Source of the DNA: Methanosarcina barkeri str. Wiesmoor
Lineage (GTDB): Archaea > Halobacteriota > Methanosarcinia > Methanosarcinales > Methanosarcinaceae
DNA length: 64,000 nucleotides
Direction: 5' to 3'
Assembly: GCF_000969985.1 (NCBI RefSeq)
Contig: NZ_CP009526.1
Location: forward strand, 310,001-374,000
The position numbers and the translations under genes were made by a program. The notes under the pieces were generated by a model. It ran no database searches. It was not told the origin of the DNA and saw nothing but the letters and a program-made list of their open reading frames with translations. Positions 6,796 to 64,000 of this stretch are shown piece by piece (positions within the stretch are counted from its first letter, which is position 1; every line of letters begins with the position of its first letter).

Positions 6796-8937
6796 TCACT
6801 TTGCCACTTTTATATATTTCCATTTTGATTTTGTACTACTTCCTGCTTCATTTGTTGCTATGAGTTTAACCGTGTAAGTTCCTGCTGCTGAATATGTGTG
6901 TGTTGGACTCTTTTCTGTTGAATATTTTCCATCTCCGAAATCCCATTTCCATTTCGTTGGTGATCCTTTGCTCGTCTCCGTAAATTTTACCTTTAGCGGA
7001 GCTTTTCCTGATAATGGCCAGCCCCAGAAATCCGCAGTCGGAGCTTGCGAAGTTCCTGTCACGGTTATATACTTTGATTTTGTTGCTGTGTTGATGCCTA
7101 CCGCATTGGTTACTTTGAGGGTTACTGTGTATTTTCCTGCTTTGGAATACTTATGCGTTGGATTCTGATGGAATGACTTTGTTCCGTCTCCAAAATCCCA
7201 TTTCCATTTCGTTGGTGATCCGGTACTTTTGTCAGTAAATTTAACGTTTAATGGAGATTTTCCTGAGGTTGGAGATGCAGAGAAGGCAGCAACGGGTTTT
7301 GATGTCACGGTTATATACTTTGATTTTGTTACCGTGTTCTTGCCTTTAGCATTCTTTACTGTTAAGCTAACAGTATATACTCCTGCTTTTGAATACTTAT
7401 GAGTTGGATTCTGGTGGTATGACTTTGACCCATCTCCAAATTCCCATTTCCATTTAGCAGGTATTCCTGTACTTGTGTCAGTAAATTTAACCTTCAGTGG
7501 TACTTTTCCTGAAGTAGAAGAGGCTGAAAAGGCAGCAACTGGTTTTGTTATCACTTTTATATATTCTGTTTTTGTTACCGTGTTACTACCTGCAGCATTC
7601 TTTGCTGTTAAGCTAACAGTATATACTCCTGCTTTTGAATACTTGTGAGTTGGATTCTGGTGGAATGACTTTGATCCGTCTCCAAAGTCCCATATCCATT
7701 TAGCAGGTGTCCTTGTGCTTGTGTCAGTAAACTTAACCTTCAGTGGTGCTTTTCCTGTAGTTGGAGCTGCAGAAAATGCAGCAACTGGAGAGCTTTTCGA
7801 AAGGGTACCCATGTAAATGTCGCGATTTCCATTGCGCAGATCTGTCCATACTATCCTGTCACCATAGATCTCTGGATCGTACTGATCTGATTTATCAGTA
7901 GTGTGCCATTCCTGACCAGTGGCTAGATCGTACACGTAGACGTCCCAGTTTCCATTGCGACCATCAGACCACACTATTCTGTCACCATAGATTTCAGGAT
8001 AGCAGGTAGTTTCATGATTTGTGATCGGAGTTTCCTTTTTAGTGGAAAGATCATACATGTAGATATCCCAGCTTCCATTACGATTATCCATCCACGCTAT
8101 TCTGTCACCGCAGATAACAGAATACATCTTCTTTGATTCATTGTTAGTAATTTGAGTTTCCTTTTTAGTAGATATATCGTACATGTAGACATCAGTATAT
8201 CCATTGCGAGAGTCTACCCATACTATCCTGTTATCGTAGATAGCAGGATAGTTTGCAGATCCGCTATTAGTGATCCGGGTTTCCTTGGAAGTAGATAAGT
8301 TGTACATGTAGATATCGTCCATTCCAGTGGATCCATATCGGCGATTATCTTCCCACACTATTCTGTCCCCGTATATTGCAGGAGCAGAGAAAACTGCTGA
8401 GTCGTCAGTTATCCTTTTTTCCTTTTTAGTGGAAATATCGTACGTATAAATGTCGTAACCTTCATAGGGTTCACCGCGATAACCCATGCAGACAATCTTG
8501 TCACCGTAGATTGCAGGAGCAAATGTCCCTTCTGCATCAATAATAGATATCTGAGTTTCTTTTTTAGTAGAAAGATCGTACATATAGATATCCCCATTTC
8601 CATTGCGTTCATCATACCACAAGATTTTGTTACCATAAATAACAGGGTCAGACTGCTCGAAATTATTAGTGGTAATACGCTTTTCAGTGATCTTGAGCTC
8701 AGCAGCTTGTATAGATTCCGTGGCTGTATCAGTTTCTTCGGTAGATAACTCATCGGACGGAATCTGGTCATCTGAGGGATCGCCTGCTCCACTGCTGACC
8801 TCCGGTGGGGTGCTCAATGTGGTGTTATTATCTATTATATGCGCGAGTGCCGATGCCGTGGATGAAACAAAAATCAAAAATAAAATTATAAATGTTGAAA
8901 CTAAAGCTATTGAGTACGCTTTTTCTTTCTTTTTCAC
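6796..8937 (-). CDS. Secreted surface protein: seven-blade beta-propeller plus four PKD domains
   Basis: The 713-aa protein begins MKKKEKAYSIAL, nearly the same signal peptide as its 560-aa neighbour, followed by a serine/threonine-rich linker and seven propeller repeats (IYGDRIVW, DIYMYDLSTKKE). Four PKD domains follow, each with a W(K/I)W(D/E)FGDG core, from about residue 390 to the end (YIKVAK). There is no C-terminal anchor. The upstream leader (8950-9170) resembles that of the neighbour, including a shared ttcctcttttccattt ribosome-site region, so both are probably expressed from related promoters. Different PKD numbers in near-identical paralogs point to unequal recombination between repeats. 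Confidence 0.85.
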   Translation of the reverse strand: MKKKEKAYSIALVSTFIILFLIFVSSTASALAHIIDNNTTLSTPPEVSSGAGDPSDDQIPSDELSTEETDTATESIQAAELKITEKRITTNNFEQSDPVIYGNKILWYDERNGNGDIYMYDLSTKKETQISIIDAEGTFAPAIYGDKIVCMGYRGEPYEGYDIYTYDISTKKEKRITDDSAVFSAPAIYGDRIVWEDNRRYGSTGMDDIYMYNLSTSKETRITNSGSANYPAIYDNRIVWVDSRNGYTDVYMYDISTKKETQITNNESKKMYSVICGDRIAWMDNRNGSWDIYMYDLSTKKETPITNHETTCYPEIYGDRIVWSDGRNGNWDVYVYDLATGQEWHTTDKSDQYDPEIYGDRIVWTDLRNGNRDIYMGTLSKSSPVAAFSAAPTTGKAPLKVKFTDTSTRTPAKWIWDFGDGSKSFHQNPTHKYSKAGVYTVSLTAKNAAGSNTVTKTEYIKVITKPVAAFSASSTSGKVPLKVKFTDTSTGIPAKWKWEFGDGSKSYHQNPTHKYSKAGVYTVSLTVKNAKGKNTVTKSKYITVTSKPVAAFSASPTSGKSPLNVKFTDKSTGSPTKWKWDFGDGTKSFHQNPTHKYSKAGKYTVTLKVTNAVGINTATKSKYITVTGTSQAPTADFWGWPLSGKAPLKVKFTETSKGSPTKWKWDFGDGKYSTEKSPTHTYSAAGTYTVKLIATNEAGSSTKSKWKYIKVAK

Positions 8938-9359
8938 TTTTTCTTCCTCTTTTCCATTTCTTTTAGTGCTTATTATTCCCAGGAGTTGGCGAAATAGAGC
9001 AGTGGTAAACTAAGCATTGATCCTGCTTGCAACTGGCCACCACTACTAAGCAACCCGGAAAACATTAAAAATTACTTCACTTAAATTCTCTGTTATTTCC
9101 AATAGTTGTCCGGTTAAAGAAAATGATGGCCCTATATAAAATACCATTGAACTCTTTTTCATTCCTTCGTAGGTCATAGAAAATAAAATCGTAAAAATTA
9201 CATACAAATTCGACTAATAGAGGAACGATTAATCAAAAACTAATACATGGGAAAAAGACTCTTGTTTTCTCGATTTTCATAATAGGAAGACACTAAATAA
9301 TTTACATCGAGATACAGGTCAATATTTAGGAATGAAGACTTAATAATTGAGCTGGAAAT
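8938..9359. promoter_or_regulatory. Leader and promoter region of the 713-aa surface gene
   Basis: No gene is seen. Bases 8990-9170 share short blocks with the leader of the 560-aa gene (ctatataaaataccattgaa against ctgtataaaataccttggaa near 6163), supporting a duplicated 5' region that probably carries the promoter. Confidence 0.4.
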
Positions 9360-12317: not shown

Positions 12318-13235
12318 GTCCTGAATCTTTCCCTAAACTTGGCCTTCAAATCCCATTTTGAACAACCTTTGAGCTGCAACCGTTATGATGTTGATTTCTT
12401 CGTTGCTAAGATTTTCGGTCAAGCCTTTTTTGAAAAGGCTTGTGCTGCAACCGTTATGCCTGTTGATCACACCGACTATGTCGTTACTGGAGTTTTCGCT
12501 CAAGCCTTTTTTGAAAAGGGTTGCGGGAAAGCAGTTTTTTGAAAAGGCTTGTGATCACGCCGGATAGGGATTGGAGATAAAATCCTTAAACTCAAATTTT
12601 GAGCAGTTTTTGCTCAAACTTTTTTAAAAGACTTGCACCACTTTGAGCCTTTGGTTAAACTTTCCCCTGGAAAGGCTTTGGAACTCAAATGAATATTTTC
12701 ATTGATTAGTATGCTTTAATTTTAGATTAGTAGCAACAAATTATAAATACATTAACTCCTTTATTACATATGGGACTAAAAATGAAAGGTTCTCCCTTAT
12801 ATAAGTATGTCAGTATAAGAGCCTCCTAAGCTCAAAGCGTATACATTCTAAACTGAGAATTTAGTAAAAGCTCTAAGTATTGTTTGATTAAAGGAACAGC
12901 CGGTAGTACAAGATCAATCGAAAGTGCAAGACCAACAGATAAATTTGAAAAGTGTAGACTCAGTCAAACCAAGTATAACTATAACTTATTATAAAAATTA
13001 AACGTGAACTATTAAATGTGAACTGAAACTCTGGACTAAATCTCGAATTCAGGTTATGGAGTTGATAGGAGAAGATAGTAACAAAATAAGAGTAGATAAC
13101 GTGTGCGTAAATTTCAAAGATAAATAAATTGTGCTCAAACGTCTCAAGGAATTTATTGAATCCAGAACAATAAGATTTGGTTTCAAAGCCGATACTGGAA
13201 TACATATATCGGCCTTTAATCTTATCCCTTCAATT
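12318..13235. other. Gene-less stretch downstream of glmM, containing repeat-rich DNA
   Basis: Besides the inverted-repeat arm at 12369-12553, bases 12540-12690 hold weaker copies of the same palindromic motif (caaacttttttaaaagacttg, ctggaaaggctttgg). Bases 12700-13200 are AT-rich; short frames there lack ribosome sites. The frame reading LKEQPVVQDQSKVQDQQ near 12890-12945 looks like the tail of a lost protein but cannot be supported. Confidence 0.5.
12369..12553. repeat. Left arm of a perfect 185-bp inverted repeat
   Basis: Base-by-base comparison shows 12369-12553 equals the reverse complement of 18730-18914 without mismatch. The arm contains smaller palindromes of the type aagccttttttgaaaagg, repeated three times in variants, so each arm can itself fold. 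It lies just past the 3' end of glmM. Confidence 0.95.
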
Positions 13236-55669: not shown

Positions 55670-56459
55670 AATATCTACTGTTATTTACCCCCAAAATAAG
55701 ATCGTCGATTAACATATTTATATGTATCATCCCCCATAAATCTGAAAATATGTAAGCTAGAACTATAATTGTTCAGTATTACTTAACATAAATCCATTGT
55801 TATTAAGCCATCCAAAACCAATATTACTCCCAAATAAATCTGAATTTCTGAAATACTTTGTGGTCAGAAGCTCAATTGATTATTCCATCTTCGCGATTTA
55901 AAGAAGATCTTTTGAGTTTTGGGATGGATTCTTTTTTTAATAGAAGACTAGCTTCTAGTTTAATTAACTCCTGTGTAGAAACAGGTTCCATAATATAAAG
56001 ATATCTTCCTGATATTCATTCTATTTTTAATTTACAATGTAGTAAAGAAAGAATTTTTTAATAGAAAACAAAAGAGGGGAATCATAAGGGGCACAATTCA
56101 ATAAATAAGATTTAAACGAGTAATTTATCAGGCATCTTATAAACTTCTAAACGAAAAAACAAGTAGCATCTCAGAGGTTAGTTTAGAAACTTTATTTCCT
56201 ATTTATATAAACCATCTGAGACATAACTACTTGTGTAAAACTATCAAGATATTTATTCAAACTCAATAGTTTCAGTAAACTACTTACTAAACAGACATGA
56301 AATTCTTCGAATAACAGGCACAAAGAAATGAAAGTACTTTTTAAATTACAGTACTTTCATGCTAAATCTATACCCATTTAATAGGGAGTCTTACGTTGGG
56401 ATCTAATATAAATGACAGGAGTGATCCGATACGGTAGAGGGAAGGGGGTGGATTCACTA
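55670..56459. promoter_or_regulatory. Gap upstream of the ABC exporter with an 11-bp inverted repeat
   Basis: No gene is seen. Arms atgaaagtact (56328-56338) and agtactttcat (56350-56360) are perfectly complementary with an 11-base spacer, about 100 bases upstream of the exporter start. This could be an operator or a hairpin in the leader. Confidence 0.5.
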
Positions 56460-57449
56460 ATGACCAGTAATGTCATAGAAGTAAATAATCTTGAGCATTC
56501 ATATGGTTCTGTAAAAGCGGTTGACAATATCAGTTTTACTGTAAAACAGGGAGAGATTTTCTCATTCCTTGGTCCAAATGGGGCAGGCAAAAGTACTGTG
56601 ATTAATATTCTTACGACACTCAGGAAACTCCAGAAAGGCAACGCCAGAGTTAACGGGTATGATGTAACAAAGGAACCAAACTCCGTAAGAAGGTCAATAG
56701 GAATTGTTTTCCAGATGCTTTGCCTCGATCATGAAATGACGGTGTCTGAGAATCTGGAATATCACGGTAGGATCTATTCGATGAAAAAAAAAGAAAGAAA
56801 TAAACGCATCGAAGAACTTTTAAAGCTGACAGATCTGGAAAATAAAAAGGATACCCTGGGAAAAGATTTGAGTGGAGGCATGAAGCGAAGGCTTGAGCTT
56901 GCAAGAGGATTGATGACAAAACCTGCAGTCCTTTTCCTTGATGAACCAACGATAGGTTTCGATATCCAGACGAGAATGAGAATGTGGGAATACCTTAGAG
57001 AGATTAAGAGAGAGGGCACTACTATATTCCTGACAACACACTATATGGAAGAAGCCGATCAGTTGAGCGACAGGATAAGCATAATTGACCATGGAAAAAT
57101 AATCGTAACCGGAACCTCTAATGAGTTAAAGAATAAACTTGGTAAAGACCTTATTTATCTGGAAACAAGTGATAATAAGGCTGCTGCAGAGATCTTAAGG
57201 TCTCTAGTGTCAGTTAAAAGTGTAACAGAAGATACGAAATCCCTGAGAATTATGATCGGGGAAGACGTTACTCATGTGCTTCCTCAAATTATGGAGAAAA
57301 TTCGGAGAGAGGGGATAGATATTATAATCGTAAATATTAAAAAACCGTCAATGGATGATGTTTTTGTTCATTACACAGGACACGGGTTAAGGGAAGGCGA
57401 TGAAGACGAAAAACAGCAAGTAATAGAAATGGTGGGGATTTCTAAATGA
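56460..57449 (+). CDS. ABC exporter ATPase (DrrA/CcmA-like)
   Basis: I start at 56460 (MTSNVIEVNNLEHSYG), with aagggggtgg upstream, against a longer frame from 56412. The about 329-aa protein has Walker A GPNGAGKSTVINIL, signature LSGGMKRRLELARGL, Walker B AVLFLDEPTIGFD and H-loop TTHYMEEADQ. The C-terminal extension of about 90 residues is typical of drug/antibiotic exporter ATPases of the DrrA type. Its stop overlaps the permease start. Substrates may be lipids, antibiotics or peptides. Confidence 0.9.
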   Translation: MTSNVIEVNNLEHSYGSVKAVDNISFTVKQGEIFSFLGPNGAGKSTVINILTTLRKLQKGNARVNGYDVTKEPNSVRRSIGIVFQMLCLDHEMTVSENLEYHGRIYSMKKKERNKRIEELLKLTDLENKKDTLGKDLSGGMKRRLELARGLMTKPAVLFLDEPTIGFDIQTRMRMWEYLREIKREGTTIFLTTHYMEEADQLSDRISIIDHGKIIVTGTSNELKNKLGKDLIYLETSDNKAAAEILRSLVSVKSVTEDTKSLRIMIGEDVTHVLPQIMEKIRREGIDIIIVNIKKPSMDDVFVHYTGHGLREGDEDEKQQVIEMVGISK

Positions 57450-58279
57450 GCTTCGAATTTCGTGCCATATACTGGAGAGAGATGCTGAAATACTTTAGAT
57501 ATAAATCAGTACTCATCACTTCAATGATCCAACCTGTGATGTGGCTAGCATTTTTTGGGCTTGCCATGTCAGATAGTTTTGACAAACTAACTTCACTTGT
57601 TCCAAATGAACCCGGCGTTCCCATCGTCAAATATATTACCTACATGGGTGCAGGAATAATTGCAATGGATGTGCTGTTCAGCAGTTTGTTTGGAGGCACT
57701 ACCCTTATGTTTGACAAAAAATTTAGCCTTTTAAGGGAAACCCTTGCGAGTCCAGTCCCCAGGTCTCATATTATTCTCGGTGTTGGACTTTCCGGTGTGA
57801 CCAAAGCCCTCTTTCAAACTTTCATAATAATTGGGTTCGGAAAACTTGTAGGAATGGAGTTCTTTAAGGGATATACACTTATTGAAACTCTTATCGCAAT
57901 GGTGGGTATTATGTTACTAGTGTCAATTTTTACTCTTGGCTTCCTTTTTCTGTCAGGTTCAATTGCAATTACCGTTGAAAATCCGGAGGGAATGCAGTCT
58001 ATTCTCACCCTGGTTAGCATGCCAATTTTCTTCGTAAGTAACGCCCTTTATCCTATTGACGGATTTCCTACTTTCCTCAAAATTCTATCAATGTTTAACC
58101 CGCTGACCCTTCTGGCCGGTGGAATTCGTTACTTTGCTTTGGGAACCGATTTTTCTGTGATGGGAATTCACTATATCTATACAACAGTTGATATAGTCGC
58201 GTCTTTCTTGGGCCTCGTTTTCTTCGCCCTTGCAATGCTATCTATTGCTATGTGGAGGTTTAATAAAGTAGACATATAA
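57446..58279 (+). CDS. ABC-2 type permease (DrrB-like)
   Basis: The 277-aa protein has six hydrophobic segments and the ABC-2 signature region (ITVENPEGMQSILTLVSMPI and FVSNALYPIDGFPTFLKILS). It pairs with the ATPase upstream through an ATGA overlap, together forming an exporter. A 7-bp hairpin (acttggattaggactccaagt) at about 58369-58389 may end the transcript. No accessory protein is encoded beside it. Confidence 0.88.
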   Translation: MSFEFRAIYWREMLKYFRYKSVLITSMIQPVMWLAFFGLAMSDSFDKLTSLVPNEPGVPIVKYITYMGAGIIAMDVLFSSLFGGTTLMFDKKFSLLRETLASPVPRSHIILGVGLSGVTKALFQTFIIIGFGKLVGMEFFKGYTLIETLIAMVGIMLLVSIFTLGFLFLSGSIAITVENPEGMQSILTLVSMPIFFVSNALYPIDGFPTFLKILSMFNPLTLLAGGIRYFALGTDFSVMGIHYIYTTVDIVASFLGLVFFALAMLSIAMWRFNKVDI

Positions 58280-59647: not shown

Positions 59648-59782
59648 TCACCTGGAGAATCTGCCGAAGAGACCAGAGCCACCAGAGCCACAAAAGCCCT
59701 GACCGCTGATGTACATCAACTTAAATCTTATAATCTCTATAAAAATGTTGATTTTTGTATAACTTAAATAAAATATTGGCAT
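59648..59782 (-). CDS. Candidate small Gly/Ser-rich peptide (44 aa)
   Basis: From the ATG at 59782 (eight bases after a run of six G) the frame reads MPIFYLSYTKINIFIEIIRF, a hydrophobic N-half, then a tail with GQGFCGSGGSGLFGRFSR. The contrast between the two halves and the lone cysteine is unusual. A second ATG at about 59716 would give 22 residues. It may be chance, but the site and tail make it worth listing. Function unknown. Confidence 0.35.
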   Translation of the reverse strand: MPIFYLSYTKINIFIEIIRFKLMYISGQGFCGSGGSGLFGRFSR

Positions 59783-60515
59783 TGTAAGTCCCCCCACTTT
59801 TCTACTTTTAAAATTGTCTTTTTTCAATTCATCTATCTTCAATTAAAATGAGCATTTTCTGCCAATTTTAACTCAGTTTGCGAAGCACTCTGGATAATAT
59901 GTGTTTTTCCTCAACCCCCTTAGACATCCATTCTATATCATACTCTCAAGCTATAACTCCAGGAATTTACTTTTGGAACTACAAGTAAGTATAAATAATC
60001 TTGAAGATTTCCAGCTAAAAGATTTATGAATTTGAAGGATATTAAATCGGATAGCTAGGTTATATATACTTACTCTAGTTAATATTAACAAATTTGTATC
60101 TATTTATATTTAATAGTTCCAATGATAAATTACTAAGGAGTATCAATAACAAGGTATACTTCAAATTTATATATAATGTGAAGAACGAAAACTCCTTACA
60201 AATAATAGTCTTTTAGTATTTAGAGACTGAATATTTTGCTTCAACATTTCTATAGGATTCTCCAGCATCTCGTTTTTTAATTTCCATCTCAATTTCTCGG
60301 AGGTAGGCGCCCATTTAATGGAACCATGAGGTTTAAAAAATATTATACTTTTCCGATTTTCAGCTTTTTAAAAACAATTTTAAATTATAGACTGTTTCTT
60401 ACCCCATATTTCAAAAAGTATGTTTGAAAAATGTAGAAACCTTCAAAAGAGTAAATATTAGGAAAATAAAAAAGAAGTAAAAAAGTGGTAATATTACGTT
60501 TTTTTTGTAAAGAAG
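59783..60515. other. AT-rich gene-less stretch before the peptide operon end
   Basis: No accepted gene. A 24-aa frame near 60209-60280 (minus) reads MEIKKRDAGESY and has no good ribosome site. Confidence 0.4.
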
Positions 60516-60540
60516 AAGTTACCTGAAAAGCAGGCAACTT
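60516..60540 (-). terminator. Terminator-like hairpin of the micro-peptide operon
   Basis: On the minus strand aagttgcctg ctttt caggtaactt (60540 to 60516) folds into a 10-bp stem with one mismatch and is followed by ttcttta. It lies 37 bases past the last peptide stop. Confidence 0.6.
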
Positions 60541-60576
60541 CATATGTTATTGTTATCTCTTAGTCATCATTATTGC

Positions 60577-60654
60577 TTAATCGCAGTAGAAAAATTTGAA
60601 GCATTCGGCCGCATAGTTATAGCAGACCTGTGTATAGTAAATGCTGAAGCTCAT
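60577..60654 (-). CDS. Micro-peptide A (25 aa, aromatic and Cys-rich)
   Basis: GAGGAGG lies about nine bases before the ATG at 60654. The 25-residue product begins MSFSIYYTQVCYNYAAEC and ends FFYCD, with cysteines at 11, 18 and 24 and nine aromatic residues. It differs from copy B only at residue 2 (Ser for Thr). It is the last of three homologous frames in one minus-strand unit, followed by a terminator-like hairpin. DNA outside the frame is less conserved than DNA inside, and the change gcagct to gcggcc at residues 15-16 is silent, which favours selection on the peptide. No family known to me. Confidence 0.7.
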   Translation of the reverse strand: MSFSIYYTQVCYNYAAECFKFFYCD

Positions 60655-60668
60655 ATTTAATTTCCTCC

Positions 60669-60790
60669 TCTCTTTTACCAAGTTTGTTCGTTCTCCGTTA
60701 TACACTGGGTTTCTGCAATTGGGAAATATAAGATCTTATGATCATCCCCTGCAGAAACCGTGTAATTTACAGCTTAATTAGCATTCCTGC
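60669..60790 (-). repeat. Palindromic spacer between micro-peptides B and A
   Basis: Arms ggtttctgca (60759-60750 region on the minus strand) and tgcagaaaccc enclose a second dyad (ggg-atgatcataagatcttatatttccc). Nearly the same structure lies between C and B (60905-60975), and a diverged one between D and C (61125-61180). They could be RNA processing sites, attenuators or regulator targets. Confidence 0.7.
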
Positions 60791-60868
60791 TTAATCGCAG
60801 TAGAAAAATTTGAAGCATTCAGCTGCATAGTTATAGCAGACCTGTGTATAGTAAATGCTGAAAGTCAT
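60791..60868 (-). CDS. Micro-peptide B (25 aa)
   Basis: Same layout as peptide A, beginning MTFSIYYTQVCYNYAAEC and ending FFYCD. GGAGGG lies 9-10 bases before the ATG at 60868. The spacer to peptide A folds into a hairpin with ggtttctgca-type arms. Cysteines 11, 18 and 24 are kept. One of three copies in tandem with a 213-214 base period. Confidence 0.72.
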   Translation of the reverse strand: MTFSIYYTQVCYNYAAECFKFFYCD

Positions 60869-60882
60869 AATATCGTTCCCTC

Positions 60883-61003
60883 CAATCTTTTCCTGATTTT
60901 TTATCTCCCATTATATGCTGGGTTTCTGCAATCGGGAAATATAAAATTTTATGCTCATTCCCTGCAGAAACCGTGTAATTTACAGCTTAATTAGCATTCC
61001 TGC
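60883..61003 (-). repeat. Palindromic spacer between micro-peptides C and B
   Basis: Contains ggtttctgca/tgcagaaacc (10-bp perfect stem) around gggaatgagcataaaatttt and its partial complement. The sequence is about 90 per cent like the B-A spacer by eye. Confidence 0.7.
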
Positions 61004-61081
61004 TTAATCGCAGTAGAAAAATTTGAAGCATTCAGCTGCATAGTTATAGCAGATCTGTGTATAGTAAATGCTGAAAGTCAT
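61004..61081 (-). CDS. Micro-peptide C (25 aa)
   Basis: Third copy, differing from B only by Ile for Val at residue 10. GGAGGG is placed as in B. All cysteines and aromatic residues are conserved. Downstream spacer of about 135 bases is nearly identical to that after B, including the long palindrome. Confidence 0.72.
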   Translation of the reverse strand: MTFSIYYTQICYNYAAECFKFFYCD

Positions 61082-61205
61082 AATATCGTCCCTCCAATCT
61101 TTTCCTGATTGTTCATACCCGTTATACACGGTCTTCTGCAATCCGAACACAATACCTTTGCCATTCTCTGCAGAGACCTCTTGAACTTCTGCTTTAAAAA
61201 TTCAT

Positions 61206-61295
61206 TTAACAGAACATAAAGAAGAAGCCCATATCGTTTGTAAAGTTAAAGCACTGGCTAAGGTTGAAGCCGAAGATAATTTCTGGAAATGCCAT
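61206..61295 (-). CDS. Micro-peptide D (29 aa, diverged member)
   Basis: GGAGGG lies seven bases before the ATG at 61295. The 29-residue product starts MAFPEIIFGFNLSQCFNF and ends FFFMFC, with cysteines at 15 and 29 and eight phenylalanines. It has no clear alignment with A-C except the aromatic/Cys composition and the same ribosome-site context. It precedes C, with a hairpin spacer between (ggtctctgcaga with ctgcagaagacc-like arms). It may be a partner of the A-C peptides or a different peptide of the same class. Confidence 0.6.
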   Translation of the reverse strand: MAFPEIIFGFNLSQCFNFTNDMGFFFMFC

Positions 61296-61493
61296 GTTTA
61301 TTCCCTCCATATCTTGTATTTTCGAAATCGATACTTGCATACTGTAGATAGCAATTTTATTTGCAACCGCTGTTTAATTTTGATATAATTTTCGTCTATC
61401 AAACCTCCAAATCACATGGCTACTGTCAGCCACTTGATAAGATTCATGTGGTGGATTTCCTCTTATTTCAGGATCTACCGTTAAAAGTTTTAG

Positions 61494-61541
61494 CTAACAG
61501 TGACTGTATATAGCTATATATATTAAGTTATATAAACTCAA
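61494..61541 (-). CDS. Candidate leader micro-peptide E (15 aa, TTG start)
   Basis: The minus strand has AAGGAGGTGAT (61558-61548), a full-length complement to the 16S rRNA 3' end, then TTG at 61541. The frame encodes MSLYNLIYIAIYSHC and stops at 61494. It is the first frame after the operon TATA box, about 30 bases from the predicted transcript start. Aromatic/hydrophobic composition and a C-terminal cysteine agree with the other peptides. It may be a leader peptide or a fifth member. Confidence 0.45.
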   Translation of the reverse strand: MSLYNLIYIAIYSHC

Positions 61542-61592
61542 TAGAAAATCACCTCCTTATAAATAATACCTCTTAAATGTTTAGAGTACTAA

Positions 61593-61601
61593 TTTTATAT
61601 A
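61593..61601 (-). promoter_or_regulatory. TATA box of the micro-peptide operon
   Basis: Minus-strand tatataaaa, about 35 bases upstream of the strong Shine-Dalgarno site at 61548-61558. A start about 25 bases downstream would give a leader of only about 15 bases before that site. Confidence 0.5.
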
Positions 61602-62165
61602 CATATATATGTTTTTTTAACTGGTATTATGTTCAAAAGTTTAGGATCTATTCCCACTTATATCTAAATATTTAATTGTCTTTACAGGTCCAAAGAAAAA
61701 ATTCTCTAAAATGTCCGGGGTAGCCATTTTAATTCTGCCATCATCTTTTTAGAAAAAATGTAATATAAAAACAGTATAAATTTATTAGAACCAACTCCGG
61801 GATGAGATTATGAATTTTTTGGGAAAAGCCTTCCCTCTCATTAAATAGTTACAGCTATCTGTTCTCACTGTTCCCATTTTAGTAGATTCCATTTATAGAA
61901 ATTTTTAGTAAAGAACTGCGTTTTATATTGAAAAAATTCGTCAAAAAGTCCAAAACCATATATAGAGTTTCAATTTTGAAAATTTAGTTTTGACTTCTTG
62001 ATTTCAAAGCTAGAAATTGATAGCTACATACCTTCAAATTGACTCTTTAGGCGAAAATTAAGAAAGCATAAGTTAAAATGGACTGTCTTACATAATAAGT
62101 AAAAGCGTTGAAATTATTCAATGTAATTCATTCATCACATTTCAGTAACTTTGGGAAAGGGGGAT
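61602..62165. other. Gene-less gap between divergent units
   Basis: Upstream regions of the minus-strand peptide operon and the plus-strand ABC pseudogene. A 12-codon frame at 61810 (MNFLGKAFPLIK) is not supported. Confidence 0.4.
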
Positions 62166-62866
62166 ATGAATATTATCAAAAATAGTTTACCTGAGGGTGG
62201 ATTCCATATTGTCAAGGTTTCAAATGTCAGGAAAAGCTATGTACTTGGAAGTCTGGAAATTCCCACGCTCTCAGACATCAATCTCAAAACTGAGAGAGGA
62301 GAACTTCTGGATATAGCTCAATCAGGCTCAGAAAAAAGTACTCTTGTGAACCTTATAGATTGCCGTAACAGGATTACTGAAGGTCAAGTTCTTGTAAGGG
62401 GTCATGACCTCAATAAAATAGACCAAGAGCTTGCCCTCCTTTGGGAAACTGAAATTTGTTTCGTTTTTCAGACCTTAAATTTTGTTCCGCGCCTGACTGC
62501 TTTTGAGAATGTTTTGCTCCCAACCTTTGCTAATTCGAGAAGCAATATTGCTCCAACGAAGCATGCAAGGGAACTTCTTGAAGTTATGGAACTTCGTAAC
62601 CGCATGCATCACAAACCAGGAAAACTTTCAGGAGGTCAGTCCCAGAGGGTTTCAATTGCACCGCATATTAATGATCCTGTAATCTTTCTTGCGAATGAAC
62701 CGACTGGAAAACCTTAACTCCAAAATAAGAGCCAAAATCCTTTGTATATTTATGGATTTTGATAAAGAAAGTAGAACAAATAGTAATCGTTGCACATGAC
62801 ACTGAGATTGCAAAATATGCTAACAGAGTTATCCTGGTAAAAGATGGAATAATTCAATACAATTGA
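62166..62866 (+). pseudogene. Decayed MacB/LolD-like ABC transporter ATPase
   Basis: Frame 62166-62717 has the LolD/MacB layout (VSNVRKSYVLGSLEIPTLSD). The Walker A is broken (SGSEKST, where G is replaced by E), the signature is intact (KLSGGQSQRVSIA), and Walker B reads FLANEPTG with Asp to Asn. A stop after NEPTGKP at 62717 is followed, in another frame, by the missing C-terminus (IVIVAHDTEIAKYANRVILV) ending at 62866. It is therefore a frameshifted pseudogene. AAGGGGG precedes the ATG. The COG1361 gene begins 12 bases further, the usual partner order with a FtsX-like permease missing here. Confidence 0.85.
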
Positions 62867-62878
62867 AGGTGCAAGTAT

Positions 62879-64000
62879 ATGGAAATGATTAAGAAGATTA
62901 CTGTAGCAACTATTTCTTCCTTGCTTTTGATTTCCTTGCTTTTTGCAGTTCCTGCCTCTGCAGCTGTTGGGGGAGCCAATCTAAAAGTTACAATAGTCGA
63001 AACAAATCCCTATCCTGCAAAAATAGGAGAATACCTGACTTTAACTGTCCAGGTGGAAAACATCGGCGGGGATAAAGCTGACAATGTTGACATCGAAGTT
63101 GTACCTCAATATCCTTTCTCTCTTGATTCAGAGACAAATGCCCTACAGAATGTTGGAGTCCTCAGTCCTGGCAGGACTGCTACAAAGGAATTTTACCTTT
63201 TTGTAGACAAAAATGCGCAGAAAGGAGTACGTTCCATTGACATCAGAACAAAAACCGGTAAAAACAGCCCCTGGAGTGAGAAAAGCTTTGACATACGAAT
63301 AGGCACTGAAACATTTAACAGCAAAGGTACAGTTGAACTTAAGGAATTTGTTTCGGACCCAGAGGTTTTCATGCCCGGAGACAGAGGTACTGTCACTGTA
63401 ACTCTGAAGAATACTGCAAGTAATCCTACTGTCACTATTGATGGAAGCGACTTTGATACAAATGCTCGAATTCAGGCTGCGGTTTTGAGACCTTTATCTG
63501 ATGGGATTATCGTTCTTGATGCTCCTTACGGAGATATGGGCCTTCTGGGACCAGGAGATAGCATCAAACTGACTTTTAATGTTAAAGTTGCAGAAGACAC
63601 TCCAGAAGGGACTCACAACTTTGAACTTGCAATAGAGGGAAACTCCTTCGATTACAACAGCAGAAAGAATATTCCTCTCAAGGTAGATTCTTCAAACATA
63701 AGAGTGATTCCTTCAAAAGAACTTCAACTGACAAATGGTGAATCTACAATTGAGTTCGATGTAGCGAACACTCATCCTAATGAGTTTAGCTCGGTTAGTA
63801 TAAAACCTGAGGCTGAGGGCATCACCTTCTACCCTGCAGAATATTTCATAGGGCCAATGAATCCGGACGAACTTTTTACGATTGAATTTAATGCCGTTGC
63901 AGACGATCCATGGGGTGCCAGTAAGGAAGGGGGGATAAACATGAGCCTCACTGCAAACTACAACAACGGAATCAACAGACACGCAAATACTGTAGGAGAC
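62879..64000 (+). CDS. COG1361-type S-layer-like surface protein (partial, runs off window end)
   Basis: Open from the ATG at 62879 to the end of the window; AAGGTG precedes it. A signal peptide (MEMIKKITVATISSLLLISL, ending near PASA) is followed by beta-sandwich repeats of the COG1361/CARDB type (LTLTVQVENIGGDKADNVDI, VTVTLKNTASNPTVTIDG, IEFDVANTHPNEFSSVSI). Such proteins sit next to MacB-like ABC ATPases and FtsX-like permeases and probably act outside the cell. The ATPase just upstream is decayed, so this copy may depend on another ATPase. The C-terminus lies beyond the window. Confidence 0.85.
   Translation, partial: MEMIKKITVATISSLLLISLLFAVPASAAVGGANLKVTIVETNPYPAKIGEYLTLTVQVENIGGDKADNVDIEVVPQYPFSLDSETNALQNVGVLSPGRTATKEFYLFVDKNAQKGVRSIDIRTKTGKNSPWSEKSFDIRIGTETFNSKGTVELKEFVSDPEVFMPGDRGTVTVTLKNTASNPTVTIDGSDFDTNARIQAAVLRPLSDGIIVLDAPYGDMGLLGPGDSIKLTFNVKVAEDTPEGTHNFELAIEGNSFDYNSRKNIPLKVDSSNIRVIPSKELQLTNGESTIEFDVANTHPNEFSSVSIKPEAEGITFYPAEYFIGPMNPDELFTIEFNAVADDPWGASKEGGINMSLTANYNNGINRHANTVGD

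Follow-up and report, generated by a model that had tools for sequence, protein, structure and literature searches.

The staphylococcal PSM-alpha operon encodes four leaderless peptides of 20-25 aa in tandem, which are amphipathic alpha-helices and leave the cell through an ABC exporter. Tandem leaderless micro-peptides with an ABC transporter nearby also make up garvicin KS and aureocin A70, both of which are cationic and strain-specific. Here, we analysed an array of tandem micro-peptide frames in the 4.9 Mb genome of a Methanosarcina of the M. barkeri type, within a stretch of 64,000 nucleotides that we refer to as the window. The array shares with PSM-alpha the tandem order of short leaderless peptides and a neighbouring ABC exporter, in this case of the MacB type and linked to the peptides by place only; it differs in having no known sequence similarity, in the periodicity of its peptides and in belonging to another domain of life. 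Unlike garvicin KS and aureocin A70, its peptides are near neutral or acidic and are kept throughout the genus. With the type I toxins Ldr and Ibs it has in common repeated short hydrophobic frames that annotation easily misses, while a promoter scan found no conserved antisense promoter in it and its peptides are aromatic, charge-bearing and linked to an exporter. Because cationic charge and helical moment are both missing, we do not consider the locus a member of the tandem leaderless-peptide operons, alike as the architecture is.

Methanosarcina species are a major biological source of methane, and neither peptide signalling nor peptide warfare is well understood in them. A multi-copy peptide operon next to a candidate exporter in a genetically tractable species makes the question of peptide signalling or warfare directly testable. 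In the same genus, the main text of a Ribo-seq study of M. mazei gives 314 small frames without annotation, of which half have at most 30 aa, and a membrane-bound small protein encoded within a transporter operon (PMC11456600). That main text presents no tandem micro-peptide array and does not use the words tandem, copies or paralog; its supplementary list may include some of the frames. Full-text searching of the literature returned no description of the micro-peptide operon, which seems to be undescribed.

Layout of the array and its distribution in the genus

Judged from its sequence, the minus-strand segment 60515-61545 of the window is a single conserved transcription unit, leading from a TATA-type leader through a first frame, C, and three D frames to a terminator-like hairpin. 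C (61206..61295, 29 aa, MAFPEIIFGFNLSQCFNFTNDMGFFFMFC) carries a GGAGG 8 nt upstream, and GGAGG-type ribosome sites are likewise present at D1 (61004..61081, MTFSIYYTQICYNYAAECFKFFYCD), D2 (60791..60868, MTFSIYYTQVCYNYAAECFKFFYCD) and D3 (60577..60654, MSFSIYYTQVCYNYAAECFKFFYCD), each of which encodes 25 aa and was subjected to profile and omega tests. D1-D3 sit on a repeat of 213/214 nt with DNA identities of 95% and 62%. A preliminary description of this DNA had placed five short frames with ribosome sites in the interval 60516-61601. The observation is real and four of these frames hold up; the fifth, of 15 aa, does not survive as a peptide, its start being lost in related species, and the system extends beyond that interval: a conserved single-copy micro-ORF, E (59648..59782 (-), 44 aa, MPIFYLSYTKINIFIEIIRFKLMYISGQGFCGSGGSGLFGRFSR), lies past the terminator-like hairpin.

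Is this array a common element of Methanosarcina genomes? Homologs were sought, by a single-sequence search and then with a profile built from 35 peptides, among 31 Methanosarcina species/genomes. D arrays were found in 21 of them, far beyond chance, with 2-7 copies each and 79 copies in total. All relatives of D in the GTDB contig collection belong to Methanosarcina, and weak matches of the D profile in other genera were judged to be chance. A mobile or viral origin was rejected, since a search of IMG/VR gave zero D relatives and the synteny is fixed.

With few exceptions the 79 copies are 25 aa long, whereas the spacers between them range from 51 to 287 nt. The consensus, MxFSIxYSxVxxxYxAECFKFFYCx, contains an invariant Met1, and Tyr7, Phe19, Lys20 and Tyr23 are nearly so; M. 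mazei-type frames read, for example, MFLSLFYKAVEIAYTSTVFKFFYCM, MILSIFYKTVSVVYNSTVFQLFYCM and MILSIFYKTTEIVYKSTVLKFFYCM. The cysteines at 11, 18 and 24, to which attention had been drawn as a shared trait, are common only to the D copies of the species in the window. In the genus as a whole, residues 11 and 18 vary and residue 24 is mostly, not always, Cys, and a disulfide-structured peptide was ruled out on this ground.

The accompanying frames are similarly widespread. Each of the 21 species has a counterpart of C (24-31 aa, 1-3 copies), which always comes first, ahead of D. Relatives of E, of 32-44 aa, are present in 23 of the 31 genomes, about 0.7-1 kb past the terminal hairpin. For E, a single helix (residues 3-28) followed by a flexible Gly-rich tail is predicted at a mean pLDDT of 68.6. 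D and E give a co-linear profile match, equal scores being reached in 7 of 200 column shuffles.

Coding evidence and conserved RNA or DNA elements

The pooled between-species comparison of D yields pN 0.369 and pS 0.605 in the true frame, as against pN/pS values of 0.399/0.400 and 0.403/0.349 in the frames shifted by 1 or 2 bases. In the least diverged pairs omega lies mostly at 0.15-0.4 (exceptions being G007-G023 with 0.68 and G001-G009 with 0.53), and an ATG start together with a ribosome site is found in 79/79 copies. The codon-substitution test suggested in the preliminary description thus reveals purifying selection that is specific to the frame, and the view expressed there that the peptides are selected is borne out: 21 species have kept the frame, and shifted frames carry no such signal. 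The sequence comparison makes it nearly certain that the D array is coding, and we strongly infer that the D peptides are made. Copy number and codon-level selection together allow genus-wide genes of only 25 codons to be detected. For C and E, in-frame pN/pS values amount to 0.27-0.55 and 0.16-0.47, respectively; C24, C29 and E38 give the clearest signal; in C25 and E32 it is weaker, and a shifted frame is somewhat biased as well. Because selection acts at the level of codons, the peptides matter, and not the RNA alone.

The leader region (61494..61617 (-)) is kept as DNA in 22 species, the start codon of the 15-aa frame is not. Two TATA-like boxes lie in the leader 5' of C. The upstream one reads AAAAAACATATATATGT; the second, likewise conserved (TTTATATAA...TATATAGCTATATACAGTCACTG), takes in the 15-aa frame (61494-61541). 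At least 10 of the 22 species have TTC, TTT, TCC, CCG or TAG in place of the TTG start of this frame, a frameshift occurs in G015, and the stop is gone in G018 and G029. Its pN/pS of 0.054/0.252 is coding-like, but with starts lost and conservation at the DNA level it was rejected as a peptide; because the start is missing in about half of the species, the frame is almost certainly a promoter/leader element. Between the TATA element and C, at 61420-61470 (-), the leader further contains a conserved linear motif, AAGTGGCTGACAG. The idea of a k-turn bound by L7Ae in the leader was set aside, as nothing spoke in its favour.

A locus-specific motif of the form TATAACGGG-RAY-GAACAA, with the consensus GTATAACGGGgRATGAACAAA, stands 30-45 nt 5' of the start codon of most D copies. 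In the window it lies upstream of D1 (61109..61126 (-), TATAACGGGTATGAACAA), is degenerate upstream of D2 (60897..60915 (-), TATAATGGGAGATAAAAAA) and forms the sole exact match to the search pattern in the entire genome upstream of D3 (60684..60702 (-), TATAACGGAGAACGAACAA); looser matches in this genome occur at the level of a reversed-pattern control. Several first D copies of M. acetivorans/M. mazei-type arrays have no clear match.

The palindromic spacers and the terminator-like hairpin pointed out earlier were both recovered. Spacer hairpins lie between D1 and D2 (60921..60972 (-), GGTTTCTGCAGGGAA...TTCCCGATTGCAGAAACC) and between D2 and D3 (60708..60759 (-)); where the spacers measure about 105-155 nt such a hairpin is present, 5 of its 11 consensus pairs showing compensatory changes, and arrays with spacers of 51-71 nt have none. 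The terminator-like hairpin 3' of D3 (60515..60541 (-), GAAGTTGCCTGCTTTTCAGGTAACTTC) has counterparts about 25-55 nt past the last D stop in all 21 species, followed by a T-rich tract, and also in a 22nd species, G011. It mostly reads AAGTTGCCTG-N5-CAGGCAACTT, has diverged in G015, and is specific to this locus within its own genome.

The conserved leader DNA, the covarying spacer hairpins and the repeated motif would suit a regulatory RNA that is processed into hairpin units and uses the frames only as devices for positioning ribosomes. Yet D, C and E are selected at the level of residues, and arrays with short spacers keep the frames without the spacer hairpins, so we regard such an RNA as very improbable.

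Peptide properties and known peptide systems

About 30% of the residues are aromatic, and on the Wimley-White scale the mean energy of transferring a peptide to a membrane interface is -4 to -8 kcal/mol; the composition is not that of simple transmembrane helices. D has a mean charge of +0.27 (range -2 to +2) and C one of about -0.8, which departs from the cationic character of leaderless bacteriocins. The moment of D at 100 degrees shows none of the excess that amphipathic helices like PSM-alpha would give (z = 0.1), and reaches z = 3.0 at 90 degrees, while the 24-25-aa forms of C show a strong two-residue alternation of the beta type (180 degrees, z = 4.0). None of the peptides has a signal or double-glycine leader, D being conserved from Met1. 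Searches of Pfam, NCBIfam, PDB sequences and Rfam gave zero matches.

These properties bear on two leads raised in the preliminary description. Peptides of the bacteriocin or modulin type in the strict sense, antimicrobial or surfactant and secreted by the flanking ABC exporters, would account for near-identical leaderless tandem micro-peptides adjoining such exporters, for the interface-active composition and for a turnover of peptides at one fixed site (see below). The exporter neighbourhood would fit the peptide-signal or bacteriocin lead; the charge and the helical moment do not fit the strict bacteriocin or modulin reading. The array is moreover genus-wide rather than strain-specific, and no immunity gene was recognised at it, which leaves this explanation unlikely.

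The short, repeated, hydrophobic-aromatic frames would suit a family of type I toxins, small toxic peptides silenced by antisense RNA. However, the antisense promoter scan returned no clear enrichment: it counted 32 TATA-like sites where about 23 were expected, and in a single copy out of 79 such a site lay in the 80 nt 3' of the frame. The peptide core contains charged residues, and up to seven strong ribosome sites per array would be hard to silence. We therefore give the toxin reading hardly any credence.

The MacB-type exporter and turnover of peptides at the locus

In the window, the array is divergent from a MacB/LolD-type ABC ATPase (62151..62717 (+), PF00005), which is followed by a CARDB/NEW3-type surface protein of the same cassette (62879..64000 (+), running off the window), with a MacB permease and a second ATPase beyond it. 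On its other side the array is convergent with an ABC-2 (DrrA/DrrB-like) exporter pair (56412..58279 (+)). The divergent arrangement with a MacB-type cassette recurs in 21/21 species. The cassette consists of a MacB-type ATPase, a CARDB/NEW3 surface protein and a MacB permease, and in most cases another ATPase and another surface protein come next, with contig ends cutting the gene order at some loci. NCBIfam relatives of the ATPase include LolD, MacB and the exporters of darobactin and lactococcin 972, which handle peptides or lipoproteins, all of them scoring below the cut-off. Most species, and most M. barkeri-type loci, have the DrrAB-like pair; in G001, G007, G009, G010 and G023 another gene of about 555-598 aa occupies this place. 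Several M. acetivorans-type loci carry an unrelated gene of ~590 aa in its stead. Since DrrAB is swapped out in those five species, the MacB link alone is constant.

We tentatively favour, at slightly below even chance, a dedicated micro-peptide operon, in which the leaderless peptides D, C and E act, together with the MacB-like exporter, at the cell surface or beyond it. The tandem copies would raise the dose and recombination would keep them alike. The aromatic leaderless peptides would favour membrane interfaces and work with the divergent MacB-like ABC exporter and its CARDB protein, most likely leaving the cell through that exporter and serving as a signal, a surfactant or an inhibitor of kin or competitors. 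Our confidence in the link between array and exporter is moderate; the mode of action of the peptides we infer. The link could also reflect a shared ancestry of place and not of function. The array-side ATPase in the window is truncated (188 aa) with a degenerate Walker A and resembles a decaying gene. In the M. barkeri group it has diverged fast (54-63% identity); the remaining cassette is 84-96% identical, and the second cassette ATPase is well conserved. In this species and its close relatives the nearby ATPase thus decays while the peptides are still selected, and this weakens a strict dependence on that subunit.

The main rival, which we consider rather unlikely though clearly worth weighing, is that the peptides stay inside the cell, in or on the membrane, where they would regulate a membrane complex or make it complete, either the MacB cassette or another. 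Vertical, genus-wide conservation suits housekeeping better than warfare, an export leader is absent, and E is predicted as one helix. Small accessory proteins of bacterial and archaeal transporters are known. The membrane-bound small protein in a transporter operon, as given in the main text of the M. mazei study, is a precedent from the same genus (PMC11456600). Two to seven tandem copies would, on the other hand, be unusual for accessory subunits, and at the same place other lineages have peptides unrelated to D.

In G025, a 23rd species, four tandem 32-aa peptides unrelated to D (MFDTLIGIGNFAIQTATGN...; MFDTLIGIGNFAIQTATGNAFIAQIIGQWTWV...) are encoded at L106:4862-5380 (+), between the same MacB and Drr genes, and the site also holds one D-like frame and E. 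In G036, of a sister genus and presumably Methanosarcina sp. MTP4, four intact tandem aromatic peptides of 21 aa (MLDFLIFAFNEFWFSYFQFYI and its kin) and a broken fifth lie at L154:1781-2624 (-), with two more micro-ORFs beside them. They are unrelated to D in sequence, show a pN/pS of 0.26 and are arranged divergently to a MacB cassette, with 79% identity in the N-terminus of its permease. That the architecture is shared although the sequences are unrelated is the best evidence that micro-peptides would belong with a MacB-type exporter. Peptide sequences that turn over between related lineages while the site stays fixed suggest that specificity may shift over time. The operon might even represent a new class of archaeal secreted peptides, leaderless aromatic tandem micro-peptides with a MacB/CARDB exporter that are replaced lineage by lineage in methanogen signalling or competition, a generalisation that we hold to be doubtful. 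At the other loci examined outside the genus no such array was found, and other genera with MacB cassettes are mostly without one.

In G011, three diverged D copies of 29 aa adjoin other genes, away from the MacB cassette. Similar repeat-like sequence (GGCTCTTCG...CGAAGAGCC) occurs in this species at L148 about 8800-8950 and at L153 about 13050-13170, one stretch beside the MacB cassette and one after the array. This suggests that a later rearrangement parted array and cassette, the repeats perhaps being the break points.

A second, single-copy D-like peptide, MVFSFYYSRVCWYYEKVCFFVKFCF, and its relatives occur elsewhere (L004:1501-1578 (+), G000:C2:1396611, and also L107-L112), in several species near an mptE/ileS-type region and a KaiC/RecA-like gene. 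Near this second locus, GGAGG-led micro-ORFs rich in Cys and Phe were seen at L110:4237 and L111:5313 (MCGCYSFFNLKWCFFKIKFFKCFQNFCGCR; MCGCFTFFNFNYRICYMKIYYKIVCSHGHGRGCGCGC; coordinates on the strand scanned), and these are possibly another undescribed micro-peptide family.
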